From Anodontia alba (lineage: Eukaryota > Mollusca > Bivalvia > Lucinida > Lucinidae), in NCBI GenBank assembly GCA_964016985.1, contig OZ024828.1, forward strand, positions 85,266,308-85,330,307: 64,000 bases of DNA, read 5' to 3'. Shown one piece after another: positions 11,101 through 63,978 of the stretch. The notes beneath the pieces were generated by a model. That model worked only from the letters and a program-made list of their open reading frames with translations. It was not told the origin of the DNA and searched no databases. Numbering within the stretch: the first letter of the stretch is position 1; each line of letters begins with the position of its first letter. A program made the position numbers and the translations under genes.

Positions 11101-14100
11101 GCTATGATATGTCTCACACACATTGACAGTTGCAATCTTTTCCATTTCAGAATATCAAGTTGGATGATTTAGAAGATGATTTTGATGATGACAGAGACTA
11201 TAAACCATATGGAGATTCCAAGAAAAAGGGATTACCAAAGGAGGTAATTGTTAAAATGTTGTCTTTATTTTATAAGAAAATTCAAATGTAATGCTAAATA
11301 ATATTTTCAATGAGAAATGAAAAAAAAAAAACAACCGAAAAAACAACAACAACAACTTTTATACTGCCATGTATATTTTCAGTAGGCTTACCGCTTTATG
11401 ATTAATTTGTATTAATATTTTTTTGTTTGTTTATTTTTGCTGAAAAAACATACACTTCATGGAAAACTTGCCAGTGAGTGACCTTATAGTTATTTACCAG
11501 CTCAACATGACCATAACGGGTTGACTGGGCTGTGAAACCTCAAATCTTGGTAAGAGGGATGTCTACATAAGGATTTTATGATTTTTGCAAGGCGCTTCTA
11601 ATGAGTACCCACAACAGAAATAACAAACATAACAGTACATTTTGGTTAAAAAAAATTATCTAGAGCTGTGGACTTAGAGGGTGGTACTTTGGCAATGGCT
11701 TCAGTTCAAAAAATTTTAGAAATAAAGTCCTATATCAGACTGCGCATAACTGCTGAAGCTGATCTGGGTCTTCACATTTCATCTGAAGACACAAGTTATC
11801 CAGTGATTTTTTTACCTGCGCATCCCGAGTCCTGTACTCACATTTTTGCTTTGGGACTCACATTTTAAATCTCAGCGAGTCCCAGGACTCGCAAAGTTAT
11901 AGTGGAAAATTCTGTAATGGACGCAATGATTTTCTAGTAGGACTCATTTTATATAGCCAAGTGAGTCCTGGGACGCATAGGTATAAAATTGTAATTAAAT
12001 CACTGGTTATCTAGAATTACCATTGATTATCATCATAAATTTTAGCATAGCTCCAGATAAGACACTTTTTTCAACCAGAAAATATGGTTATTTTTCTTAT
12101 TTTTGAATGAAAACATATGTTGTGGTACTCATTAGAAGTGCCTCATCGAGGCACTTCTAATGAGTACCCACAACACGTTTTTGTGATGAAATAAGAAAAA
12201 ATATTTACCTGATACCACTTCTTATCTGGAGCTGTGTCCTAGAAGCAGCTTTATCAATTTCAATGAATGTCTCCAGGTTTCTTTGTTATTTCTTCCATAA
12301 TTTAATTTATTCTTTGTATCAAAGCTTACAAAAGAAGTTTTATTATTCTGGGGCCAGAATACCTTAAACCTGGTCCTTCTGAACCCCAATATGCCCTGCC
12401 TTTGCAAACAGTGCAGATCCAGATCAGTTAGCCTCTGAAAAAGCCTACTGATCTGGACTTGTTCTGTTTTTAATTCAGTATGTAAATTTGTATCAGCATC
12501 CTGGATCAAGAAATCTAATTGGCTGACAGTTAGGAGTTGGGATGACATGTTAATTTATTCAGCATGACAAGAGTTTAACCCATAAAACGCCAAGAAAACA
12601 TGCATCTGAAAATGTCGTCTGCTGAATATTCTTGCAAACTTTTCAAACCTATTTTTGCATACAGGCAAACAGTGTGGACCCAGATCAGACTGCTCCTTTA
12701 GCAAACAGTGTGGACCCAGATCAGACTGCTCCAAAAGGAGCTGTCTGATCTGGGTCCACACTGTTTGCAGAATTGACTTTTAAAATCACAAACAGATGAC
12801 AAAGAAGACGACAATTGTTGTGATTGGCAGTTTCAGGGTTCATAATTATAAACTTCCAAGTGGAAAGTAACTGCTATATTTACCCTAAGTATTCAGACAG
12901 ACAGGTCTGAGTAAACAGTGTAGATGCAGAGACCTGAGCAAAAATGGACTTGATCAACTTTACGGAAAAGTATGGTAATGAGATAAAGTGGCCTGATATT
13001 TAGGGTAAATAGGGTGCACTCTGGTCACAGGGTCTTCAACTTTTTCCAGTCAGTGTCAGGATTTAGAACAATGTTTGCATCAGAAGTTCACATAGCAGAC
13101 AGTCTAGAGACAAGACATTGGTTCGGATAAGGGGGATATCCACATTACATTTTTCTTATTTCTCCATGAAAATATATGTTTTGGGTACTCAGTGGTACTT
13201 TGGGTACTTTTTACCTTGTAATGAGTATCTACAACATATGTTTTTGTGGAGAAAAAAGGAAAATATAAGTTCACAGTAGCCTCTTTATAACACTTTTGCT
13301 AGGATCCAAAGTGAAAACCATGTTAGCTTAACAGCCGTGTTGTATCCAAACAAAATGTCTAGATTATAACCATAAATGGTCATTTTTCTATATAATCTGT
13401 ACATTTTTGTTTGGATACAATACTTTTGGGGTCCACCTTCAAACCGTCTTATATCTGAACCGACTAAAAATGAATCATCTTATAAAGAGGCTCCAGTGAA
13501 CTTATATTTGTCTTATTTCTCCACAAAAACATATGCTGTGGGTACCTTTGGTTGCAAAAAGTGCCTTATCTCGAGCTAAGGGTAAAATTCTCATATAATA
13601 CAGGCAACCTTCATTATAATGCAGTGATTTATTTACAATTTTATACCTATGTGTCCCAGGACTCGCTTGGGCTATATAAAGTGAGTCCTACTAGAAAATC
13701 ATTGTGCCCATTACAGAATTTTCCACTATAACTTTGTGAGTCCTGGGACTTGCTGAGATTTAAAATGTGAGTCCCAAAGCAAAAAATGTGAGTACGGGAC
13801 TCGGGATGCGCAGGTAAAAAAATCATTGTAATGGCATTCATTTAAACAGCAAAAATCTTAACGACGAAATTTTGAATTCTACAACTGCACACTACTGTTG
13901 TATTCACATTCTTTATAACAACAAATACAGTTTAACGTCGCAATATTGGGGAACAAATGCTGACATTGTAAATAGGGTTAACTGAATTTTTAATATTTGA
14001 ACGGGAAAGATAAAACCTACAGGTAGTCAATTAGACTAGTTCAAATTTTAGGACAAGTACGGAAATAACCCTAAGTATTGGGACAGACAGGCCTGAGCAA

Positions 14101-63978: not shown

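Follow-up and report, generated by a model that had tools for sequence, protein, structure and literature searches.

How does one and the same hairpin come to be housed in transposable elements with different ends? The window, by which we mean the whole 64,000-nucleotide stretch analysed here, raises this question, as its initial annotation had rightly recognised: a core sequence and its complement recur throughout, mostly as hairpins of 65-66 bp, in elements that differ in ends and target sites. The core 20-mer is matched 50 times in the window with at most 3 mismatches; over 100 shuffles the mean is 0.00. In the whole assembly (1.86 Gb, 317 contigs), with at most 2 mismatches, forward matches number 247,080 and reverse ones 247,723, ~495,000 altogether; a reversed control pattern has 15 + 15 = 30. 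These roughly half a million arm matches would correspond to some quarter of a million hairpins. The range 11801..63590, to which the core had been ascribed, does hold copies but is too narrow, as copies also lie at 1066-5640 and genome-wide.

As a rule, MITE families are recognised by their ends and their success is credited to a transposase. The huge copy number across two target types suggests that the interior of the element also decides which MITEs amplify. Our results suggest that the hairpin is a reusable part, which is rarely traded and tends to be kept by transposon families.

Families and their ends

We read flanks at three sets of places: the window; 19 stretches, each 10 kb long and taken at preset coordinates, namely position 5 Mb of the 18 large contigs plus one stretch at 25 Mb; and eight loci that begin with the exact core. 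The 19 stretches add up to 190 kb with 42 core matches. The reading gave 98 rows, 66 paired hairpins and 32 unpaired. Seven family alignments took in 63 of the 66 paired hairpins; left out were window 4887 (F4-like), 12702 (the same place as 12666) and 46816 (F7). A larger sample of 301 kb holds 74 paired rows, 73 of which have enough flank to be tested (72 places).

The hairpin is housed by about eight MITE families of ~200 bp, six with piggyBac-like TTAA-CCC/CTC ends and two with TA ends. Every family has its own distinct short terminal repeats. Element ends are inverted repeats plus TTAA or TA; the TIRs, read from the consensus, are ~16-20 bp long and the hairpin is internal, so that long foldback TIRs are not present. 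The core had been placed at the centre of the elements. In the consensus, however, the distance from the near end to the hairpin is 41 bp in F1-F3, 40 bp in F4 and F8, 55 bp in F5 and 75 bp in F6, and a flank of 100-124 bp follows on its far side. No tRNA-, 7SL- or 5S-derived SINE head is found in the elements by Rfam at gathering scores. The sole Rfam match in the window at these scores is a tRNA at 52276-52348, outside the listed elements, and we therefore rejected a known RNA gene as the identity of the hairpin.

F1 (TTAA ends, TIR CCCTTGTCCTGCTGAA) lies on the forward strand at 1066..1274 (hairpin 1107-1162), 12364..12575 (core 12405-12424, second arm decayed), 30447..30631 (hairpin partly deleted), 46202..46422 (hairpin 46243-46315) and 48109..48315 (hairpin 48148-48204), with a forward variant at 27961..28172 (hairpin 28001-28066). 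On the reverse strand it lies at 20110..20318 (hairpin 20213-20278), 30648..30850 (hairpin 30755-30820), 42386..42581 (hairpin shortened, 42490-42540), 48819..49031 (hairpin 48926-48991) and 50020..50232 (hairpin 50127-50192; near end by reading). F2 (TTAACCCATT ends) is found on the reverse strand at 5418..5639 (hairpin 5534-5598), 42911..43128 (hairpin 43032-43087), 56909..57134 (hairpin 57031-57095) and 63034..63209 (hairpin partly deleted). Core copies at 12670, 36096 and 38915-39141, noted earlier as lying in other flanks, indeed belong to further families of the same kind, all on the reverse strand: F6 (TTAACCCTTAAAGCGCC ends) at 12575..12840, with hairpin 12702-12767 and, from 12666, a partly duplicated arm; F8 (decayed TTAACCCTTTCA-type ends) at 36001..36203, with hairpin 36100-36164; and F3 (TTAACCCATTTATGCC ends) at 38914..39143, with hairpin 39038-39102 and a reversed loop. 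F7 is a single reverse-strand copy at 46713..46931 (hairpin 46816-46880; limits by reading), with TTAACTCTTTGCATGCTGG at one end and GGGGAAAGAGTTGA at the other.

The first TA family, F4 (TACCATATTTACCCTAA ends), lies at 40131..40342 on the reverse strand (hairpin 40238-40302) and on the forward strand at 12876..13015 (hairpin mostly deleted), 14058..14273 (hairpin 14098-14162; left end by reading, near match from 14068), 50829..50983 (hairpin 50869-50933; approximate limits) and 58080..58263 (hairpin partly deleted), with a forward fragment at 4843..4992 (hairpin 4887-4951). The second, F5 (TACGGTAAATGTCC ends), lies on the reverse strand at 29781..29993 (hairpin 29880-29938) and 56018..56244 (hairpin 56118-56183), and on the forward strand at 14810..14940 (most of the hairpin and the inner near flank deleted), 26965..27218 (hairpin 27015-27127) and 48401..48613 (hairpin 48453-48518). 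The loop of the hairpin at 27015-27127 has a pyrimidine-rich insertion of ~50 bp.

F1, F2, F3 and F6 have TTAA at both ends, as is the case for piggyBac-type MITEs; it is intact at the left/right end in 18/18 of 23 F1 copies, 5/7 of 14 F2, 2/2 of 3 F3 and 4 F6 copies with 3/4. In the decayed F8 it is intact in 1/2 of 5, and the one F7 copy, read by eye, ends in TTAA on one side and in TTGA on the other; both families probably have a TTAA target. TA is present at the left/right end in 9/8 of 10 F5 and 14/9 of 18 F4 copies, with TTAA at either end in 0 of these 28, which places both among TA-target MITEs. By target only, they are probably of Tc1/mariner type. Different transposases probably move the TTAA/CCC-ended F1-F3 and F6-F8 (piggyBac type) and the TA-ended F4 and F5.

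Structure of the hairpin

The core 20-mer is the stem base of the 65-66 bp hairpin. All families have the lower ~23 bp of the stem in common (CAAACAGTGYAGAYCCAGATCAG). The apex is family-specific yet palindromic: GCYGC.. in F2, F3 and F4, TGCTCC in F5, F6 and F4b (copies with F4-like flanks, see below), GGCTTC in F1, GGCTCA in F8 and CCCGAC in F7. Eight hairpins were folded, and their stability against shuffles gives z of -5.4 to -13.5.

The two arms differ and are readable in 16 of 71 assigned rows; in each of these 16 the near arm has CCCAGATC (or TCCAGAT) and the far arm CCCTGATC. Arms are symmetric in 19 of the 71 (12 in F1, 4 in F6) and unreadable in the remainder. Judged by the loop, 36 of these rows are forward, 32 are uncalled and 3 are reversed (L009:6381, L021:3530 and window 39038), so the orientation of the hairpin is not absolute.

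Compensatory change was tested in 61 F4 hairpins among those listed by the exact F4near-F4far pattern. Cells with a change on both sides number 43, compared with 17.9 in shuffles (0/500 as high). Pairs changed on both sides are no commoner than in shuffles (7 vs 6.1), i.e. such compensation is concentrated. Pairing often fails at pairs 9 and 17. Because the search pattern fixes the stem's first seven and last seven positions, their constancy is uninformative. Seven F4 hairpins among the listed matches, at C1:18745454-18784376 (G000), have an unusual apex of the GCCGGAAAAT type. Three successive gaps between F4 hairpins in this region are ~4.2 kb, which resembles a tandem array.

Position of the hairpin and search for solo copies

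The initial annotation had proposed, among other explanations, that the hairpin itself inserts into MITEs. A mobile element that entered several MITEs would account for the sharp limit of similarity at the hairpin foot between F3 and F4. However, its place and consensus orientation are constant, and no target duplication is visible by eye around it. Furthermore, 71 of the 73 testable paired rows are assigned to a family (some by hand: F4b, F7) and 2 are weak, so that no convincing solo hairpin is found among the paired rows of the 301 kb; the 32 unpaired rows were read only. REPIN-like self-mobile hairpins occur as solo copies outside other elements, unlike the paired hairpins here. Nor is there a clean near-far junction lacking the hairpin among the sampled copies. 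All 21 short or one-sided cases retain some hairpin sequence except L021:4971, a far flank alone. In the alignment, over 10 stem-base positions are missing from 10 of 77 copies taken as complete, under a lenient filter that L021:4971 passed. On constant place, consensus orientation, no solo copy among the paired rows and no clean empty copy, we rejected the solo mobile hairpin and consider such insertion most improbable.

Kinship of flanks and type of hairpin

Consensus flanks, with open positions filled by eye, were compared with 300 shuffles. The flanks of F2 and F3 are similar (near z 7.2, far z 7.3), as are the near flanks of F1 and F8 (z 6.6). F4 and F5 give z 3.8 for the far and 2.2 for the near flank, and F3 and F8 z 3.6-3.7, in part from common ends. 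Between TTAA and TA families the values are low, the top ones being F1-F5 far (z 2.9, 3/300) and F4-F8 far (z 2.1). Two of four odd F4 copies tested form a bridge between F4 and F5. The far flank of L011:7313 gives z 16.2 with F4 and 8.0 with F5; window 45432 gives z 6.1 and 5.1, respectively. The latter is an F4b copy at 45317..45537 on the reverse strand, with hairpin 45432-45497 and approximate outer limits. The other two F4b candidates have no match to F5 flanks. Both bridge copies have the apex TGCTCC, as in F5 and the TTAA family F6. Thus some of the ends that had been called unrelated are drifted relatives, within F2/F3, F4/F5 and F1/F8.

This residual homology of F2-F3, F1-F8 (near) and F4-F5 (far) is what pure common descent would leave behind. 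A single hairpin MITE would have split, its flanks, ends and target (TTAA to TA) would have drifted, and the hairpin would have changed slowly with no exchange. The same plan and consensus orientation, a near flank of 40-41 bp in 5 of 7 families, the lack of clean hairpin-less copies in the sample and an F2-like near flank with hairpin in a probable lucinid fragment (see below) point the same way. We consider descent of this kind possible, though somewhat doubtful. Drifting ends of one lineage, the outcome that would make exchange unnecessary, describe the three family pairs but alone leave the sharing of hairpins between TTAA and TA families unexplained, and a change of target site by drift would otherwise be hard to explain.

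Stem-base identity between family consensuses is 0.87-1.00. F3 and F4 have identical stem bases (1.00), the apices of F2 and F4 are 0.89 alike, and the F2-F4 and F3-F4 flanks are at the shuffle level. F4 and F5 have related flanks and apices only 0.62 alike; F5 and F6 have apices 0.90 alike and flanks at noise. The hairpin type therefore cuts across the flanks, the TA family F4 having the hairpin of the TTAA families F2/F3, and F5 that of the TTAA family F6. It groups F2/F3 with F4, and F6 with F5/F4b, whereas flanks group F4-F4b-F5, which pure common descent does not predict. In a nearest-neighbour test the hairpin indicates the right flank family for 35.3 of 54 copies (10.0 expected), and 13 of the 18 errors tallied lie between F4 and F3 or F2. 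On the simplest reading, there would have been one or more transfers of a hairpin type between TA and TTAA lineages; the underlying conflict of hairpin and flanks rests on short apices (independent bases: ~9) and on two F4b copies that could be classified. As near and far flanks match each other within families, the exchange either replaced the hairpin or fell at the founding of a family.

Two recombinants have their break in the hairpin. One, C12:56365119-56365191, joins an F1 near flank to an F4 far flank with the switch near the apex. The other lies in the window at 1665..1905 on the forward strand (degenerate hairpin 1707-1760); its near flank scores 49 for F2 and 22 for F3, its far flank 80 for F3 and 15 for F2. 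Genome-wide counts of exact patterns are 2238 for F4near-F4far, 1 for F1near-F4far, 0 for F4near-F1far and 0 for F2near-F4far, a rarity scaled to F4 only, with F4near-F4far as baseline. Rarity is also indicated by the apex types, which follow the flank family in every classifiable row (see below). Hence hairpins and ends probably recombined, rarely, and exchange between hairpins, as the initial annotation proposed, gains from both the recombinants and the conflict with flank lineage, as a rare event only.

Possible constraint on the stem base

Within families the hairpin base has diverged less than the flanks (0.089 vs 0.136-0.148; paired p 2e-7 against the far flank). This would be expected if ongoing ectopic gene conversion homogenised the hairpins of dispersed copies. 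The first sample had been chosen by the core. Copies were then picked by their far flank, which avoids picking by the core; loci fetched for the exact core (L001-L008) were dropped and L028-L032 kept. Of 81 matches 78 were processed and 77 kept, 31 of them from the window. Families with at least 8 copies are F1 (23), F2 (14), F4 (18) and F5 (10).

Private substitutions per base are 0.0572 in the near flank, 0.0510 in the stem base, 0.0496 in the apex and 0.0515 in the far flank (p 0.70 for the stem base against the flanks). Shared substitutions per base are 0.0935, 0.0393, 0.0761 and 0.0797, respectively. Shared variants occur at 37 of 184 stem-base sites vs 179 of 489 sites of the inner flanks (p 4e-5), and singletons at 104 of 184 vs 294 of 489 (p 0.43). 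By family the deficit of shared variants has p 0.003 in F1, 0.0003 in F2, 0.32 in F5 and 0.49 in F4, so that two of the four families, F1 and F2, carry it. With all CG/TG/CA sites removed the direction is kept but weaker, at p 0.014 for F1+F2+F5 and 0.09 with F4 (F1 p 0.15 and F2 p 0.077 as single families). The TIRs, with shared variants at 52 of 124 sites, have more of them than the stem base, contrary to what an end-binding transposase predicts.

At face value, inserted copies would mutate evenly and source elements would keep the stem base. Even private and low shared variation of the stem base favours a role in amplification; it argues against copy-level gene conversion and also against the copies serving the host. 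In all 49 rows with a classifiable apex (of 73 rows at 72 places), moreover, its type is that of the flank family, F4b and F7 having been set apart by hand in this tally. Such unmixed apices are likewise at odds with conversion. We thus rejected copy-level homogenisation of the stem base on the equal private rates and hold ongoing conversion to be very unlikely. The split of shared and private mutations is a test usable in other genomes to tell constraint on source elements from conversion among copies.

Proposed mechanism

The finding is real and unusual; its mechanism we infer. We suggest, with confidence just short of even, MITE families on one plan, a rare transfer of hairpin type, and selection at the level of the source that keeps stem base and structure.

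The plan comprises a terminal flank of 40-75 bp, a hairpin of 65-66 bp in constant consensus orientation and a longer terminal flank of 100-124 bp. All families would go back to a single ancestor with a hairpin, or to a few.

Inside the hairpin, recombination or conversion would, on rare occasions, have carried a hairpin type from one family into another with different ends.

Selection for amplification would act on source elements, not on inserted copies. Under such selection, the 23-bp stem base would be kept for its sequence, as a cis element, and the hairpin for its structure. The hairpin is, as far as sequence can tell, a candidate cis-acting amplification module. Doubt attaches above all to two steps: the transfer between TA and TTAA families, and how strong the constraint on source elements is.

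A bolder form of this mechanism, which we consider unlikely, makes the hairpin a portable, sequence-specific amplification cassette and a parasite of transposons. Elements moved by different transposases, of TTAA and TA type, would spread best when they have it; rare recombination would hand it from one superfamily to another, and clam lineages would have retained it.

piggyBac elements and other genomes

The piggyBac transposase domain (PF13843) has 118 matches in the assembly, including several open frames of 490-610 aa. Five loci taken from the best matches hold TTAA-bounded elements with inverted ends. No hairpin lies between the ends of these five elements, nearby hairpins being outside them, and piggyBac elements with TIRs at these five loci were rejected as the hairpin source. 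In a comparison of one of them, L032, 16 of 16 end bases agree with the F1 copy at window 27961, whose first 16 bases equal both ends of the element, and 14 of 16 with the F1 consensus. At L029:4372-4600 an F3 element directly adjoins a piggyBac-like element at the latter's right end, and the TTAA at 4372-4375 is common to both.

Two exact-pattern scans of viral contigs gave no match. One exact-pattern scan of a bacterial genome collection gave one match, at a contig end in the MAG Spirochaeta sp. LUC14_002_19_P3. The fragment is half of an F2-like element with a TTAACCC end and a near flank of 42 bp, which gives z 7.3 with F2 (4.7 without TTAACCC), 5.0 with F3 and 4.8 with F1. Its hairpin agrees with F2 at 43 of 47 bases, the first 28 being identical. 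It is probably host DNA of the lucinid clam Phacoides pectinatus (L033), which we take to be the same species as Lucina pectinata. This origin is suggested by the available text of a paper on the gill microbiome of P. pectinatus, which lists a 2014 Spirochaeta-like MAG 'P3', though not the accession itself (PMC6461927).

Comparison with known systems

The open-access literature that we searched yielded no report of one hairpin in MITEs with different ends. Classic MITE families have ends in common with their parent. Here, unlike in these, the inside is common to the families and five piggyBac elements are without the hairpin; TTAA targets and CCC.../...GGG ends, together with the 16 bases of the F1 copy, are as in piggyBac-type MITEs.

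The highly conserved domains (HCDs) of SINEs, e.g. the V domain, which also occurs inside the MITE MER6, are similar in being a conserved internal segment of non-autonomous elements of different origin, and according to the available text the reasons for their conservation are debated, with module exchange among them (PMC6887750). As described there, HCDs sit in retroposons, one having passed into a Tc1/mariner MITE (PMC6887750). In our case it is DNA-transposon-like elements that carry the module, a hairpin common to several families with two target types between them. The hairpin works, by analogy, like an HCD but is not one, since its carriers end like DNA transposons. If our reading is true, it would be a DNA-transposon counterpart of these unexplained conserved domains.

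Drosophila Foldback and Galileo elements likewise form chimeric copies by ectopic recombination, as far as the consulted text describes them (PMC2775673). Unlike these, which have relatively long TIRs, the hairpin here is internal and apart from short TIRs (PMC2775673). MITE-like repeats of the globin genes of Lucina pectinata have a 210-bp consensus, in which a palindromic segment of 77 bp accompanies imperfect terminal repeats of 30 bp; another consensus, with a 68-bp palindrome, has a short segment in common with it (PMC4732748). We liken these repeats to the present families by description only, and the available text does not describe a single hairpin in elements with different ends (PMC4732748).

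Last, hairpins of a wider class have the stem middle GGCCCWGATCAGNCTGC in common and differ in the foot (GACAGCGAA.., GACGAAAAGC..). They are found at window 63402-63461, L020:8799-8858 and L016:7905-7973, and in view of them the core may belong to a wider superfamily of hairpins. A further repeated palindrome family (CATATGTTGTGGGTACTCATTAGAAGCGCCTCA and its complement), by eye unrelated to the core, lies in the window at 2191-2309, 25048-25158, 26183-26297, 36459-36663 and 38575-38693.
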